DNA from: Bacteroidota bacterium
GTDB taxonomy: Bacteria > Bacteroidota > Bacteroidia > B-17B0 > Aurantibacillaceae
DNA: 64,000 nucleotides
Direction: 5' to 3'
Assembly (NCBI GenBank): GCA_018267475.1
Contig: JAFDYI010000005.1
Location: forward strand, 62,001 to 126,000
The position numbers and the translations under genes are program-made. Of this stretch, positions 7,777 through 14,432 are shown piece after piece (the first letter of the stretch is position 1; each line of letters starts with the position of its first letter). The notes beneath the pieces were generated by a model that was not told the origin of the DNA, searched no databases, and saw nothing but the letters and a program-made list of their open reading frames with translations.

Positions 7777-7806
7777 TTTGTTTTCAAAAAAGATTTTATA
7801 CATTTG
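7777..7806 (+). promoter_or_regulatory. Promoter of the T9SS protein gene at 7848
   Basis: A -33 TTTG (7777-7780) and a perfect -7 TACATTTG (7799-7806) are separated by 18 bases. This is one of the clearest Bacteroidota-type promoters in the window. The leader would be about 35 bases and A-rich. Confidence 0.65.
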
Positions 7807-7847
7807 TGGCAACTAATACTTTAATGTTTAACCAAAAAACAAAAATC

Positions 7848-10013
7848 ATGAAAAAAACCTTATTATTAGGTACAGCGTTGATGGTTGGTGCAGCAGGTTT
7901 CGCACAAAGCGGAGCTAAAGCACGAGCTACAAACCCTAAATACCTAGAAAAAAAAGCAAATTACGGCACAACCGTAATGGTGGAGCCTCAACCATCGTTA
8001 GTATCAAATAACGCGAAAAAAGGGCAACACAATTCCGTACAATCTTCTTGTGGCTTACCCAAGTTCACAACGTCGTGGAACTGTTTTGGTACTGGAGGGG
8101 GATCTTCAACTTCTTCTCAAAGCTGCTTGTCGTACAACTCAGATTTAAACACACTTATCTGGACTCAGCGTGGCTCTAAAACATGGGCTATAAACGCTAC
8201 CAGCGGCTTTGTTCAAGCTACTTTGATAAACCCTACCACAAAGGTAAAAACAGATTCTATCAACATATTTAATGATGCAGGGGCTAACACGTACCATGCG
8301 CGTTACCCAAGCGGTGTTATATTAAACACGCCAGGAAACAACACCTTAGCAAACGCTTATGCGGTAGGATTTGCTCAGGTTACAAACGGTACTAACTGGA
8401 CGGGTACAGCTTACTCTGCAAAACCTTTATGGAGTGCAAGTGCGGTTGGGCACACTGTGGCCGGAGCTGATTCTTTGTATGCGGCAAGCGGTACTGTGTT
8501 TGGAAATAACGCATCTGCTAATCTAACTGGAGCCCCTGCTTATGACGTAGCTGCCTTACAAGGAACCAGCTCGATGGTTTCTATTGGTCAGCTTTTAGAC
8601 CCGAGCTTTACCGGTAGCGACAACGCATCTAGCAAAGGCTTTGTTTTTGTAAAAGGCACCATAAACAGCGGTACCAAATTAGTAAATTGGACCGTAGATT
8701 CTATTATGCCTGCTGTTCACAAAGGAGCTTTAGGTTATCAATTAGGATTGCCTCGTATGGCTTTTGGGCCTGATGGACAAACCGGTTATGTTGTGATGCT
8801 AGCAAGAATGGCCGCTACCTACAGCAACACAAGTGCCGATTCTGCTATGACTCCTATTGTTTACAAATCTACCGATGGAGGAAACACTTGGAATTTGCAA
8901 ACTGCTTTATTAGGATATAACTGGATGTGCCACCACCCAGAAGTAGAAAAAAACGTAGGCGAACTTGTACCTATGAAACGTTTTTATACATTTAACAACT
9001 ACGCTGAAGGCGCTGATGTAACAGTAGATAAAAACGGAATGTTACACTACGTTACTACCGTAACTGAAAGTACATTTAAAACAGGGAATATAGACTCTTT
9101 AGGAATTTATTCTCCTTTATATGATTACGATTTTTTACACCACCACCCTATCATTTGGGATTTTACCACTAATGGTTCTGACTGGGAAACCATGATGGTT
9201 GACTCTATTCTTTGCTCTTCTATTGGCAGCTCAAGCACCGATACAACTTCCAGCAAAAGTCCAATGGGAGGATCTCAAATTTTAGGTGTACACGCTCATA
9301 TTCAAGTAAGCCGTTCTGCTGATGGTTCTATGATTTTTTATGGTTGGGCCGATTCGGACACCAATGTTGTAGCGCCTAATGCGTATGGACAACGCCTTAA
9401 CACCAACCCTGATGTGATGATGAAAGCCTACAATGTTACTAGTGGAATGTTAACAGCCACAAAAAACACCACAGGCTCTTCTCCATATACAGGCACTTGC
9501 TTTTATCCATATCTGTCGGATATATCTATCAATACCGCCGGCACGAACTGGATGGTTCCAGCCGTGTTTACAACAGGCGATGTAGTTACCTCTTCTAGCG
9601 GCGGTTACCCTATTTACGACGCTAGCTCTCAAGCAGATTATTATTATTCTGATTGCGGTACTTTTATGGCTTCAGATTTTTCTCACCCTGCACATGTATA
9701 TACCTCTCCTATAGGCGGCCCTTGTACTGCTATGGGTATCAAAACAAACAATGCGTTTGAGTCGTCTATCATGAACTATCCGAACCCATTCAACGGTACT
9801 ACTACTATTGCAGTAACTTTAACCGAAGCTAAATCATTCAGCGTTAATGTATATAATGCTATTGGTGCTTTGGTTTACAGCAAATCTGTAAATGGTAACG
9901 TGGGTACTAACAATGTAACTTTTGATGGTTCTTCATTCAATGCCGGTGTTTACTACTATACTGTAAACGCAGGTAACCAACAAGCTACCAAAAAAATGAT
10001 TATTGCTAAATAA
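7848..10013 (+). CDS. Secreted T9SS sorting-domain protein with BNR/sialidase-like propeller features
   Basis: 721 residues. A Sec signal peptide (MKKTLLLGTALMVGAAGFAQ) is followed by a large extracellular region and a C-terminal type A sorting domain: NYPNPFNGTTTI, an NVYNAIGALVY strand, FNAGVYYYTV and a terminal KKMIIAK. The T9SS moves such proteins across the outer membrane and attaches or releases them at the surface. KSTDGGNTW is a BNR/Asp-box motif, suggesting a beta-propeller in the middle. Catalytic function is not evident. The ATG at 7848 is chosen because it starts the signal peptide; an in-frame ATG at 7824 and a GTG at 7806 precede it. A strong terminator follows. Confidence 0.85.
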   Translation: MKKTLLLGTALMVGAAGFAQSGAKARATNPKYLEKKANYGTTVMVEPQPSLVSNNAKKGQHNSVQSSCGLPKFTTSWNCFGTGGGSSTSSQSCLSYNSDLNTLIWTQRGSKTWAINATSGFVQATLINPTTKVKTDSINIFNDAGANTYHARYPSGVILNTPGNNTLANAYAVGFAQVTNGTNWTGTAYSAKPLWSASAVGHTVAGADSLYAASGTVFGNNASANLTGAPAYDVAALQGTSSMVSIGQLLDPSFTGSDNASSKGFVFVKGTINSGTKLVNWTVDSIMPAVHKGALGYQLGLPRMAFGPDGQTGYVVMLARMAATYSNTSADSAMTPIVYKSTDGGNTWNLQTALLGYNWMCHHPEVEKNVGELVPMKRFYTFNNYAEGADVTVDKNGMLHYVTTVTESTFKTGNIDSLGIYSPLYDYDFLHHHPIIWDFTTNGSDWETMMVDSILCSSIGSSSTDTTSSKSPMGGSQILGVHAHIQVSRSADGSMIFYGWADSDTNVVAPNAYGQRLNTNPDVMMKAYNVTSGMLTATKNTTGSSPYTGTCFYPYLSDISINTAGTNWMVPAVFTTGDVVTSSSGGYPIYDASSQADYYYSDCGTFMASDFSHPAHVYTSPIGGPCTAMGIKTNNAFESSIMNYPNPFNGTTTIAVTLTEAKSFSVNVYNAIGALVYSKSVNGNVGTNNVTFDGSSFNAGVYYYTVNAGNQQATKKMIIAK

Positions 10014-10030
10014 GCATAAGCGTTAATTAA

Positions 10031-10064
10031 AAAAAAGAGCGACTAAAAGTCGCTCTTTTTTTTT
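10031..10064 (+). terminator. Intrinsic terminator after the T9SS gene
   Basis: Stem AGAGCGACT/AGTCGCTCT (10036-10044 with 10048-10056) closes a 3-base loop and is followed by about nine T residues. Confidence 0.85.
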
Positions 10065-10209: not shown

Positions 10210-10280
10210 ATGGTTATTTTTTGCGAAAAAATTTGGACGGAATAGGGAAAATGTACGACCTTTGTAGCGTAAATAACCAT
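10210..10280. repeat. Widely spaced 10-bp inverted repeat flanking the phaE promoter
   Basis: ATGGTTATTT (10210-10219) and AAATAACCAT (10271-10280) are exact inverted copies 51 bases apart. The predicted -33 and -7 elements lie between them, so the arms could be paired regulator sites. The rest of the 280-base gap between the terminator and phaE holds nothing I recognise. Confidence 0.4.
10232..10264 (+). promoter_or_regulatory. Predicted promoter of the phaE-like gene
   Basis: TTTG (10232-10235) and GACCTTTG (10257-10264, one base off TAnnTTTG) are 21 bases apart. The leader to the ATG at 10294 would be about 25 bases. Confidence 0.45.
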
Positions 10281-10293
10281 AAAATACAAAAAA

Positions 10294-11637
10294 ATGAAGA
10301 CCAACAATCCTTTCATCGATTCAATTATTGAAACACAGACCCAAGCTATCAACAACTGGGTAGATTCTACCAAAAAATTCCAATCCGCATTTGTAGGAGG
10401 CAATATGGCCGCCGACGGGCAAGGCATCTATAAAGATTGGCTGGAAAAGCAAATGCAAACCCTTAAAGGCATTCAGGGCTCTTTTTCTAATACCGATACC
10501 ACAAAACCCGAAGAGTTTTTTAAAAATTGGTACAACCAACAGCTGTCTGAAATAAAAAAAGTAACCGATTTTAATCAAAGCCTGTACAGCAGCATGGCTA
10601 ATTTTGGAAAATCGCCTGCCGACTATATGACCAATTTTAATGAAGCCAACCATGCTTGGACGCGCATTTACAACACCTGGATAAGCACGCTGAACGCCAC
10701 TTACGATACCTTTTCTAAAAACATACCCAGCGCCTTAAATAAAGATGCGTTTAAAAACATTTTTGAAGGCAACAAAGTATTTTTAAAATTGCAAGAGTTT
10801 TGGCAACCTGCTTTTAATGCCTTTCAAAATGGAAGTTTTTCGGCTGAAAATTTTAAAAACTACACCAACCCGGAAACCTATAAAGCCATTACCGAAGAGT
10901 TGTTTCAATCTATGTACGGGCAAGCTTCTTTAAAAGAAGTGTTTGAAGCCTCTATCAAAAACATTCAAGAGTTTTTTGTAAATCAAAATCATTTAACGAA
11001 AGAGTATGCTGAAACTTTTAAAAGTATTTCGGCGGAATATCCTCAACTTATATCAGGTGATTTTGCTAAGCTAAACGACCTGTTTAAAAACGCGCAAAAT
11101 GTATTTGCAAAAAGTTTTGAGCCCGTTTTAAAATTGGTACAACCCGGAAAAGAAAAAGAAGCTGTAGAGGCAAACTTGGTTCTATTAGATAAAATATCGG
11201 AATACGCCGTAAAACAAGCGCAAATGCAGCACTATATGTATAACACCACGCAAAAAGCATTGGAAGAAAGTGCCAAAAACACCTTCGGAAAATTAAAACA
11301 AGGCGAGGTGCAAAAACAAAGCTTTAATGAGTTTTACAACGAATGGTTAAAAACCAACGAGAGTTTATTTTTAGCCTTATTTAATTCGGACGAATACTCA
11401 AAACTAAAAGGGGAACTACTTACTACTTCTATGGACGTGAAAAAACAATTTGAAAAACAATTTGAAGGCGTTTACAGCATGTACCCGGTCGTTTTTAAAA
11501 GCGAAACAGAAGAACTTGCTAAAATGGTGTACGAATTAAAGAAACAAGTAAAAGCTCTTGAAACTCGCTTAGCTGCGCAAGGTGCTGCTTCTTTAAATTT
11601 TGATGATGAAACACCGGTGAAAACCAAAAAGAAATAA
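10294..11637 (+). CDS. phaE: PhaE-like class III polyhydroxyalkanoate synthase subunit
   Basis: 447 residues, soluble, almost entirely helical and rich in aromatic residues. The C-terminal third carries the PhaE pattern: FNEFYNEWLKTNE, a central FEGVYSMYPVV, and a terminal coiled coil ELAKMVYELKKQVKALETRL. PhaE partners the catalytic subunit PhaC to polymerise 3-hydroxyacyl-CoA into storage granules. The protein is longer than the usual ~360 residues, with N-terminal repeats of Trp/Phe-rich helices. No PhaC, PhaA, PhaB or phasin gene is seen here; the gene is bounded by its own promoter and terminator. It could instead be a PhaE-related granule protein. Confidence 0.75.
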   Translation: MKTNNPFIDSIIETQTQAINNWVDSTKKFQSAFVGGNMAADGQGIYKDWLEKQMQTLKGIQGSFSNTDTTKPEEFFKNWYNQQLSEIKKVTDFNQSLYSSMANFGKSPADYMTNFNEANHAWTRIYNTWISTLNATYDTFSKNIPSALNKDAFKNIFEGNKVFLKLQEFWQPAFNAFQNGSFSAENFKNYTNPETYKAITEELFQSMYGQASLKEVFEASIKNIQEFFVNQNHLTKEYAETFKSISAEYPQLISGDFAKLNDLFKNAQNVFAKSFEPVLKLVQPGKEKEAVEANLVLLDKISEYAVKQAQMQHYMYNTTQKALEESAKNTFGKLKQGEVQKQSFNEFYNEWLKTNESLFLALFNSDEYSKLKGELLTTSMDVKKQFEKQFEGVYSMYPVVFKSETEELAKMVYELKKQVKALETRLAAQGAASLNFDDETPVKTKKK

Positions 11638-11650
11638 TCAACCACTGTTA

Positions 11651-11690
11651 AACAAAAAAGCCTTTGCAAATGCAAAGGCTTTTTTGTTTG
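11651..11690. terminator. Bidirectional terminator between phaE and the universal stress protein gene
   Basis: Stem AAGCCTTTGCA/TGCAAAGGCTT (11658-11668 with 11671-11681) is flanked by A residues on the left and T residues on the right, so it can act for both convergent genes. Confidence 0.8.
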
Positions 11691-11705
11691 GAATAATGAG
11701 CACTA

Positions 11706-12608
11706 CTAATACTCAAGGCCGCCCATAGGCACACGCATCATATCCGGATTTAATGTGGGGGGTATGCACAACACGGGTATTTTGCTATAATTAGTTAATT
11801 GGTGTATGTAGTCGCCCAGCACAATGCTTGAAAACTCGGCGCTTTGATCGGTCATCGAAATAATTAAATCGGCTTTTACTTTCTTAGCAAAATTAAGCGT
11901 GGCTTTGCTGCGGCTATCGGTAAATTGCAAAGTGGTAACGCAACCTACGTTTTTTTTGTCGGCCAAGGCTTTTATTTGCGATAAAATAACCTTCATATTG
12001 TATTCGTAATTTTTCTCTCCTTCATTGCCTTTTTGCAACAAGCCTATTACTTGCAGCTTAGCATGAAAGGTATTGGCAAAGTCAATAGCTGCATTTACTT
12101 TTTGACGCGAATTTCTAGACGAGTCAATAGGCAACACAATAGTAGAAAAACCCAATTTTTCAGCTGCTGTTTGCACAGTCATTACCGGTATTTCTGCTTG
12201 AGAAAGCACGCGGTACGCATTGCTTCCTAAGAAAAAACCATTTTTAGAATCTTTTCCGTGTGTGCCCATTACTACCAGGGTAGCTTTGTATTCATCAGCT
12301 AGTGCTACAATTTCGGAAGTAATATGGCCGGTAGATACATTGGTGCTTACTTTTATACCATATCTGCTTTTTATATCGGCTGCTATTTTTTCTAATTTAT
12401 CCGAAAGGTATTTCGTTATCACAGAAACATCTTTTAGGTTTACAGCCGGCATGATAATATCTAATAAATCACTCTTGTTTTGCACGTGTATGAGCATCAA
12501 TTCGCCTTTAGTGAATTGCGCCATAAAAGCGGCGTATTTTATAGCGTTTAAAGAGGTTTTAGAAAAATCTACCGGAATTAAAATCTTGCTGGTTTTTACT
12601 TTGTTCAT
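11706..12608 (-). CDS. Tandem-domain universal stress protein (UspA family)
   Basis: 300 residues made of two UspA domains (about 1-148 and 150-285). Domain 1 begins KILIPVDFS and holds the ATP-binding motif G-2x-G-9x-G-S (GTHGKDSKNGFFLGS). Domain 2 begins TIVLPIDSSRNS and lacks the clear nucleotide motif. Tandem Usps are thought to act in stress and energy-limitation responses. The ATG at 12608 is chosen: the upstream ATG at 12638 would fall inside the promoter. Transcribed alone. Confidence 0.88.
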   Translation of the reverse strand: MNKVKTSKILIPVDFSKTSLNAIKYAAFMAQFTKGELMLIHVQNKSDLLDIIMPAVNLKDVSVITKYLSDKLEKIAADIKSRYGIKVSTNVSTGHITSEIVALADEYKATLVVMGTHGKDSKNGFFLGSNAYRVLSQAEIPVMTVQTAAEKLGFSTIVLPIDSSRNSRQKVNAAIDFANTFHAKLQVIGLLQKGNEGEKNYEYNMKVILSQIKALADKKNVGCVTTLQFTDSRSKATLNFAKKVKADLIISMTDQSAEFSSIVLGDYIHQLTNYSKIPVLCIPPTLNPDMMRVPMGGLEY

Positions 12609-12635
12609 AGCTCTTTTGTTTTTAGGGGTTATGCG

Positions 12636-12666
12636 CAAATGTACTCTTAATTACACAACTTACAAA
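12636..12666 (-). promoter_or_regulatory. Promoter of the universal stress protein gene
   Basis: Minus-strand TTTG (12663-12666) and TACATTTG (12636-12643) lie 19 bases apart, a full -33/-7 match. Confidence 0.65.
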
Positions 12667-12700: not shown

Positions 12701-14386
12701 TTACTTGCTAATGATAACTCGTTTTGTCAGCGCGCTTCCATCCGGCATTTTTATGCTAATGAAATACATGCCATCGCTTTGGTTTGAAAGATCTATTTCA
12801 TTATTCAATTTTCCTTCGAAGCATTTTTGTCCCATCATATTATACACTTCTGCCGTATAATCAAAACTATCGTTAGCCTCTTTTTTTACAACAAAAATAC
12901 CGGTAGATGGGTTGGGAAACAACTCTAAAGAGGTGCTGCCTGCTATGTAGTTGATAGATGCAGTGGTGCAAGAGGCGTGCGTATTGGTGTAGATATTGCT
13001 TTTGCTCAATAATAAATTAAAGATGTTCATGGTAATTTTTTTAATTTTTGAACTATCTCGTGCCCCCCAACCACCTGGCCAACCATTAGCCGAGGTATTG
13101 GCGCACCAATGAGTGCCTCCCACATTTACTACGTTCCCCGAAGCAGCACTTTTTTTAAAAGCAATAAACATACCGTGCCCCTTAGCAGGCGCGCTATGAA
13201 AATCTTCTTCGCCTTCATCGTAGCCAATTAGTTCTATTTTGCAAAAACCCAATGCATTGGTATCTAACACGGGATCTCCGTAAGTATTATAGTGGTGTAC
13301 CAAAGAGCCATCGTACTCTCTGGTTTTGCAAGCAATAGTATCATGAAAATGCAAGTTGGTGCCCGCCAGAAGGGGCGAGTTGGGCAACACTATTTTATAA
13401 CCACCCCAGCCGTGATAGGCGCCCGGTATGGGTGATGGAGGGTAGGCGCCGTGCGGCCAATCTACCCCTAAGCTTTTTAGTACCGGATAATTTAACGAAG
13501 GACTAGCCCACATAATGGTTTTTAATAAAAGGTTGGGCTCGGGATCGGCAGAGGCATCTTTGTAACAAATAATTTTTGTTTTATCGGTAGGGTGGTAGCG
13601 TACTTGCCAGCAAGAAGTATTGCCCGATAGCACTACGGCATCGCCTCCTGCGTTTACAAACTGGTCAAAATTTTCTCTTGCCTTTCTGGTCCAGTACTCG
13701 CTATGCCCTACCACGCAAATTAGCTTAGAATTTTGTATTTCCGAATAGTCATCTAAATCTTGATCGCAGATTACTTGAAAGTTATATTGGCTTTGGGTAT
13801 TGATCCATTTCATAAAAGGCTCCGAGTATTTTCTAGTGTAAGTTAAATTTGCTATGGTAAGCGGCCTAAGAAAAGAAAGCGTATCAGACTGCTGCCAGTC
13901 AGTAGATCCGTCGTTGTAAAAACATTTTCCACCTGCATTGCCATAAGCCGTTTCCGTATTAGATGGGTAAATAAAGGTAATGTCGGCGTTTTTCCGACTG
14001 TTTTTTACAATAAAAAACACTTTGTTTTCCCAACTATATATCCCGCTGGGTAAGTTATTCGGTATCATATATTTGAATGAAGGTGCATAGCCAAAACCTA
14101 AAGACCAAGGCCTGGCGGCATGGCTGGAGGCTATGTGTTGGTGCACTAAATTTACTACTACCGAATCTACCTTTTTACCGTTGATATTGCGCAAATACAT
14201 TTTTACATTGGTAAACGTATTTTGTGCGTTTATATAAGCTGTGGCGGTATCGCCCTGTGTGTACGAAAGCCTGCCCATATATCCATCAGCAATGTAGTTG
14301 GTAGAAAAGCCTTGCTTGGCCACAAAAAGCAGCCACATTGCAGCCAATACTTTACAAGAGTTTAAGCGTTTTTTATTGCTTATCAT
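12701..14386 (-). CDS. Secreted T9SS protein with N,N-dimethylformamidase beta-subunit-like domain
   Basis: 561 residues: signal peptide (residues 1-28), an N-terminal beta domain, then a long region like the C-terminal domain of N,N-dimethylformamidase large subunit, with FIYPSNTETAYGNAGG, QDLDDYSEI, GHSEYWT and NVGGTHWCAN, and finally a type A sorting domain (ELFPNPSTGIFVV to KRVIISK). Dimethylformamidase hydrolyses amides in the cytoplasm; here the domain is exported, so the substrate is unknown and the call is by domain resemblance only. Start at 14386 fits the signal peptide and the promoter; an in-frame ATG at 14404 would sit in the -7 box. Confidence 0.75.
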   Translation of the reverse strand: MISNKKRLNSCKVLAAMWLLFVAKQGFSTNYIADGYMGRLSYTQGDTATAYINAQNTFTNVKMYLRNINGKKVDSVVVNLVHQHIASSHAARPWSLGFGYAPSFKYMIPNNLPSGIYSWENKVFFIVKNSRKNADITFIYPSNTETAYGNAGGKCFYNDGSTDWQQSDTLSFLRPLTIANLTYTRKYSEPFMKWINTQSQYNFQVICDQDLDDYSEIQNSKLICVVGHSEYWTRKARENFDQFVNAGGDAVVLSGNTSCWQVRYHPTDKTKIICYKDASADPEPNLLLKTIMWASPSLNYPVLKSLGVDWPHGAYPPSPIPGAYHGWGGYKIVLPNSPLLAGTNLHFHDTIACKTREYDGSLVHHYNTYGDPVLDTNALGFCKIELIGYDEGEEDFHSAPAKGHGMFIAFKKSAASGNVVNVGGTHWCANTSANGWPGGWGARDSSKIKKITMNIFNLLLSKSNIYTNTHASCTTASINYIAGSTSLELFPNPSTGIFVVKKEANDSFDYTAEVYNMMGQKCFEGKLNNEIDLSNQSDGMYFISIKMPDGSALTKRVIISK

Positions 14387-14401
14387 ATTTAGTTGTTTGG
14401 G

Positions 14402-14432
14402 CAAAACTACTTGCCCCTGTTTCCTTTAACAA
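14402..14432 (-). promoter_or_regulatory. Predicted promoter of the dimethylformamidase-like gene
   Basis: Minus-strand TAGTTTTG (14402-14409) is a perfect -7 match; TTG at 14430-14432 lies 20 bases upstream and is part of a TGTTAAA box described separately. Confidence 0.5.

Follow-up and report, generated by a model that had tools for sequence, protein, structure and literature searches.

Adjacency of phaE and phaC is usual, though not obligatory, for class III PHA synthases, and it was not found in the genome considered here (G000; 99% complete, 37 contigs). The window, a stretch of 64,000 nucleotides from this Bacteroidota genome, carries a phaE gene which, as an earlier note on this DNA had said, stands alone, with no PhaC adjoining it. 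The locus raises the question of whether the phaE product serves a synthase encoded elsewhere or is a granule protein of another kind. Our analysis suggests that it is very probably a class III PHA synthase subunit that acts in trans with an unlinked PhaC. The features of the locus are as follows.

7806–10013, forward strand: secreted protein with a C-terminal sorting domain (profile match), upstream neighbour, not thought to be part of the PHA system
10232–10264, forward strand: promoter-like element of phaE (TTTG, 21 nt, GACCTTTG), from the GACnTTTG alignment of near relatives and a single-sequence scan
10294–11637, forward strand: phaE, PhaE-family (PF09712) subunit, an ORF of 447 aa with an ATG start, predicted to be all helical
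11648–11691, readable both ways: terminator-like hairpin between phaE and the convergent Usp gene (folding)
11706–12638, reverse strand: Usp-family protein (PF00582, 123 bits), convergent neighbour, not thought to be part of the PHA system

We know of no link to PHA for either neighbour of phaE, the secreted sorting-domain protein or the Usp protein. No ORF matching the Usp gene (E 1e-10) was found at 19 compared loci of relatives, and the upstream gene has a terminator-like hairpin of its own at about 10029–10063. Beyond the Usp gene, an ORF on the reverse strand (12701–14404) joins an N,N-dimethylformamidase beta-subunit-like domain to a C-terminal secretion sorting domain, which is an odd combination.

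The ORF was recovered with exactly the coordinates, length and ATG start previously assigned to it. In a profile search, its product matched PF09712 (PHA_synth_III_E) with 73.3 bits (E 2.7e-20), above the curated gathering cut-off of 25.7 bits; the match covers residues 127–422 and reaches the model's end, and residues 1–126 are outside it. TIGR01834 gave 53.5 bits (E 2.6e-14), which is less favorable to our reading, and because this score is below the curated cut-off of 154.95 the protein was not filed in this narrow NCBI subfamily. The suspected likeness to PhaE was thus borne out by the Pfam model, and by TIGR01834 at a score below its cut-off. The protein had also been described as longer than usual. 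This is correct relative to the models (311 positions in PF09712 and 324 in TIGR01834) and incorrect within the window's family, where full-length PhaE have 438–461 aa (n=29); PhaE from other families of the phylum have 375–494 aa (n=6, by first start codon), and therefore a length of 447 aa is not peculiar to G000.

We aligned 30 PhaE sequences (alignment A1) from 30 of the 33 PhaE-containing genomes, omitting L020 (G036, cut at a contig end), L024 (G020, near-identical to L023) and G017. The 29 relatives share 35–74% identity over the whole length. P398, L415, K416, K417, K420 and L422 are invariant in all 30 proteins, and many of the invariant columns are C-terminal. The C-terminal stretch also aligns with six other PhaE of the phylum, the nearest being that of G075, and is a candidate 'PhaE box'. 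A PhaE box of bacterial PhaE is named in PMC2939530 and PMC7137286. Structural analyses gave no support to the assignment: the structure model was all helix with a mean pLDDT of 57.7, a low confidence too weak to interpret further, and the search of solved structures returned no PhaE relative (best E 0.045, unrelated proteins).

The earlier note had presented the gene as a PhaE without PhaC, which is false at the level of the genome, and had offered as one option that PhaC lies elsewhere, which is what we found. G000 has one PF09712 match (phaE itself) and a single class III PhaC, encoded on another contig (G000:C16:18931–19980; TIGR01836, 461 bits versus a cut-off of 365). The phaE gene is located on C33, a contig of 226 kb whose nearer end is 72 kb away, and phaC is on a contig of 79 kb with 19 kb between the gene and the end; given correct contigs, the two genes are therefore at least about 90 kb apart. 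PhaC matched solved PHA synthases in a structure search, and the motifs S-[IV]-C-Q-G-G and GGHIG were present in all 30 PhaC that were read, including that of G000 (35 were found). In the class III PhaC of the family, Ser thus replaces the first Gly of the customary motif G-x-C-x-G-G (30/30 read), and the same change has been described for PhaC of Halomonas (PMC7137286). PhaC from other families (G071, G092, G187, G339 and G331) retain G-x-C-x-G-G. That of G075 (L142, a related family) reads A-I-C-Q-A-G, with the first and a later Gly replaced.

A genome search for phaC, phaA and phaB, which had been proposed, was partly successful: in addition to the one class III phaC, G000 has three thiolases over cut-off, whereas the best candidate for acetoacetyl-CoA reductase, with 256 bits, fell below the PhaB model cut-off of 302, a point against our reading. 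A 3-hydroxybutyrate dehydrogenase (TIGR01963, 358 bits versus a cut-off of 307) is encoded 3.4 kb after phaC. The depolymerase model PF06850 matched PhaC itself and nothing else in G000, which again does not help the case. A phaJ-like gene for a MaoC-type hydratase is present at about 68.1–68.5 kb on C34, unlinked, and is ~78% identical to one located beside phaE in G013, G026 and G030. In these three genomes (L090, L089 and L088, respectively), the MaoC/PhaJ-like gene adjoins phaE divergently; in G026 and G030 it is followed by an SDR reductase, forming a compact PHA locus, and a single large gene separates phaE from phaC (L089 6351–8156 in G026, L088 5332–6732 in G030).

If PhaE and PhaC work together, their occurrence across genomes is of interest. 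Our sample of relatives comprised 60 genomes including that of the window, 37 of them from the window's own family. PhaE was detected in 33 of the 60, class III PhaC over cut-off in 35 and both in 32, all of the latter belonging to the window's family. Thus, 32 of 33 PhaE-containing relatives also have a class III PhaC that passes the cut-off. The remaining one, G002, is 58% complete and has PhaE together with a longer PhaC-like protein. Longer PhaC-like proteins of this kind (open frames of 590–644 aa, below the class III cut-off) were observed in G002, G003, G005, G032, G035, G041, G042, G043 and G051; judging by their length, they are perhaps class I. In the opposite direction, G001, G004 and G023 contain PhaC and gave no match to PF09712. 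A family profile revealed a piece of PhaE at a contig end in G001; in G004 and G023, both fragmented assemblies, PhaE was found neither by PF09712 nor by the family profile, which weakens the association.

We also searched 296 genomes of the phylum, including that of the window. PhaE over cut-off was present in seven of them, and the identical seven have a class III PhaC over cut-off (Fisher p 2.7e-14, kinship not corrected for). Below the cut-offs, the PhaC model matched 42 further genomes and the PhaE model one (G202). It should be noted that in many genomes of this sample no more than six of the first-look PhaC candidates were scored, so a weaker extra PhaC copy could be missed.

The arrangement of the two genes varies among the relatives. 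Of the 32 genomes containing both genes, 19 have phaE directly upstream of phaC; in four (G026, G029, G030 and G033) it is ~2–2.6 kb upstream; and in nine (G000, G003, G005, G008, G009, G017, G028, G031 and G034) the genes are unlinked. For G017 this assignment is uncertain, as only 842 bases separate its phaC from a contig start; in the other eight the genes are well inside contigs. In G005 both genes share one contig, about 108 kb apart, and in G006, which is of the same genus as the window, they are adjacent. Outside the family, an adjacent pair with phaE upstream was found in G071, G092, G187 and G339, and G075 and G331 carry the two genes on different contigs.

Trees of PhaE and PhaC were built for 28 of the 32 genomes (G010, G017, G024 and G036 were omitted). 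The unlinked genomes fall at four places, G000 with G003 and G005, G008 with G028, G031 with G034, and G009 by itself. The trees were midpoint-rooted for drawing purposes only; we take adjacency as the older state because it is widespread, and not from the tree root. Within the family, the two genes seem to have separated on more than one occasion. PhaE and PhaC distances correlate (r 0.67; none of 2000 permutations was as high), which is as expected and fits shared descent alone as well as partnership.

How could phaE be separated from its partner? The signals around the gene are informative in this respect. The hairpin at 11648–11691, earlier described as a bidirectional terminator, folds well on both strands (-26.5 and -25.0 kcal/mol; z -7.2 and -6.0), and none of 200 shuffles was as good on either. 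It was revealed by folding; a motif scan for terminators found one site versus 1.9 expected, different from this hairpin, and the same scan placed sigma-70 promoter sites at chance level (5 versus 4.7 expected). Rfam gave no match at the gathering threshold. The proposal that phaE has its own promoter is backed not by the sigma-70 scan but by a GACnTTTG block upstream of phaE, which is invariant in nine distinct near-relative genomes (10 hand-chosen rows, G013 twice). These include genomes with linked genes (G006, G010, G013, G018 and G024), genomes with unlinked genes (G000, G003 and G005) and G002, in which no class III PhaC reached the cut-off. The element resembles the Bacteroidota -33/-7 consensus. 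Among more distant relatives, several have a similar block further upstream of phaE and in others none is visible. The best -33/-7 scores upstream of phaE averaged 7.9 versus 7.1 in shuffled sequences (31 genomes); because motif scans are near the shuffled level, the case for the promoter rests on the alignment of near relatives. For phaC, no promoter of its own was found by this score (mean 7.6 versus 7.2 shuffled, 30 genomes), a further point against our reading.

The hairpin could be followed through the family. In a survey of 32 of the 33 PhaE genomes (G017 omitted, G002 included), a terminator-like hairpin was present within 150 nt after phaE in 29, including G000, with 0.8 expected from dinucleotide shuffles. 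The count depends on loop size, as loops of up to 8 gave 4 of 17 adjacent pairs and loops of up to 16 gave the 29 of 32 genomes. Hairpins were missed in G010, G018 and G027, although by eye G018 and G027 have a longer-looped one. Because the rows are related (G014 and G020 are near-identical), the 29 hairpins are not 29 independent events. Adjacent pairs had the hairpin in 16 of 19 cases. As a yardstick, we applied the same criteria to 25 family loci, with rough gene calls and phaE genes kept in: a hairpin followed 7 of 54 genes with a co-directional gap of 79–171 bp, 3 of 92 with a gap below 50 bp, 2 of 23 with 50–78 bp and 4 of 42 with more than 171 bp, and was found for 28 of 86 convergent genes. 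The start and stop signals attributed to the gene thus occur also in relatives where phaE and phaC are still neighbors. Given the hairpin in most adjacent pairs and the conserved promoter-like block, phaE was, judging by these sequences, probably a separate transcription unit before it moved away from phaC.

It is possible, although we consider it unlikely, that the hairpin has a more specific role. Kept even where phaC follows ~80–170 bp on, it might be a partial terminator that keeps PhaE more abundant than PhaC and thereby sets granule number or size. The unlinked lineages would have exchanged it for two promoters, and PhaE would be a dose-setting, partly phasin-like protein and not a 1:1 partner.

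A different view, which we regard as quite unlikely, is that PhaE has turned into a granule-coat (phasin-like) or nucleating protein outside the catalytic complex and that PhaC acts alone. The lost linkage and the N-terminal residues outside the Pfam match would agree with this, as would the fast divergence of PhaE relative to PhaC: mean pairwise identity is 54% for PhaE versus 78% for PhaC, and very long PhaE branches lead to G009 and to G008 with G028, although not to G000/G003/G005 or G031/G034. Because of this low conservation and the long branches in two unlinked lineages, a drifted role is possible. However, the C-terminal part with its six named invariant residues is conserved across 30 sequences, and the presence of PhaE coincides with that of class III PhaC in the phylum sample.

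The separation might also be an artefact of assembly or binning, in the form of a foreign gene or misjoined contigs; all 23 named related loci come from Bacteroidetes/Bacteroidota metagenome assemblies, and the two genes of G000 are on different contigs. We think this very improbable, since both genes are well inside long contigs (72 kb and 19 kb from the ends), G000 groups with G003 and G005 in the PhaE and PhaC trees alike, and these two genomes are also unlinked, with the G005 pair on one contig (about 108 kb). It is barely credible that the ORF matches the PhaE profile by chance, through a helical or coiled-coil character. An all-helical protein with a TIGR01834 score below cut-off could invite this suspicion; against it are a Pfam score nearly three times the cut-off, the full-length identity of 35–74% to 29 relatives and the co-occurrence with PhaC.

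We therefore return to a synthase subunit acting in trans as the preferred explanation. It is based on the family membership of the protein, a PhaC with the Cys and His motifs, the co-occurrence of the two and the conserved promoter-like and terminator-like signals; complex formation, catalysis, granules and use of the scattered monomer genes are what we infer. In such a scheme, phaE would be expressed from its own promoter and terminator, and PhaE would bind the catalytic PhaC made from a distant locus to give an active PhaEC complex, which would polymerize (R)-3-hydroxyacyl-CoA into storage granules. The monomers may be supplied by thiolase and reductase, or by a PhaJ-type hydratase, from genes at scattered loci. 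Separation may have been tolerated because phaE was already a separate transcription unit.

The protein resembles class III PhaE (PF09712; TIGR01834) in its profile match to the end of the model, in the class III PhaC of its genome and in the position of phaE upstream of phaC where the genes are linked. It differs from the class III PhaE models in being about 450 aa long, with an extended N-terminal region, and in scoring below the TIGR01834 cut-off, and from the usual class III arrangement in that phaE is unlinked from phaC and has a terminator-like hairpin of its own. Haloferax mediterranei offers a parallel (PMC2939530), as its PhaE can work with PhaC subunits other than the one encoded in its operon: PHBV was obtained in Haloarcula hispanica when PhaE was co-expressed with PhaC1 and PhaC3. 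However, these pairs came from one plasmid, so that they are a precedent for flexible pairing and not for subunits supplied from separate loci; in its native setting phaE is co-transcribed with the main phaC, and this archaeal PhaE is about 20 kDa. Rubrobacter, like G000, has a class III PhaC plus PhaE; the authors of PMC8146576 describe phaC and phaE as a single operon in all cases, and in Table 1 of that paper the locus tags listed for one species, R. indioceani, are far apart.

A large survey found class III PhaC in 23 phyla (PMC8312272). PHA in Bacteroidota is already known, because two Saprospiraceae genera for which pha genes are predicted gave a PHA signal in situ (PMC9304909). Among open-licence papers searched by title and the start of the abstract, we found none on unlinked phaE and phaC in Bacteroidota. 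The PHA system described here is ordinary, and the way its genes are split is slightly unusual. Two minor features stand out, namely the repeated parting of phaE and phaC and the almost family-wide hairpin after phaE. Few genomes of the phylum sample combine PhaE with class III PhaC (7/296, G000 included), and the open-licence papers searched contained little on this combination. A lone PhaE need not imply an absent synthase, and searches for PHA producers that demand phaE–phaC linkage would overlook such genomes. The family is also a reasonable testing ground for control of granules by PhaE dose.
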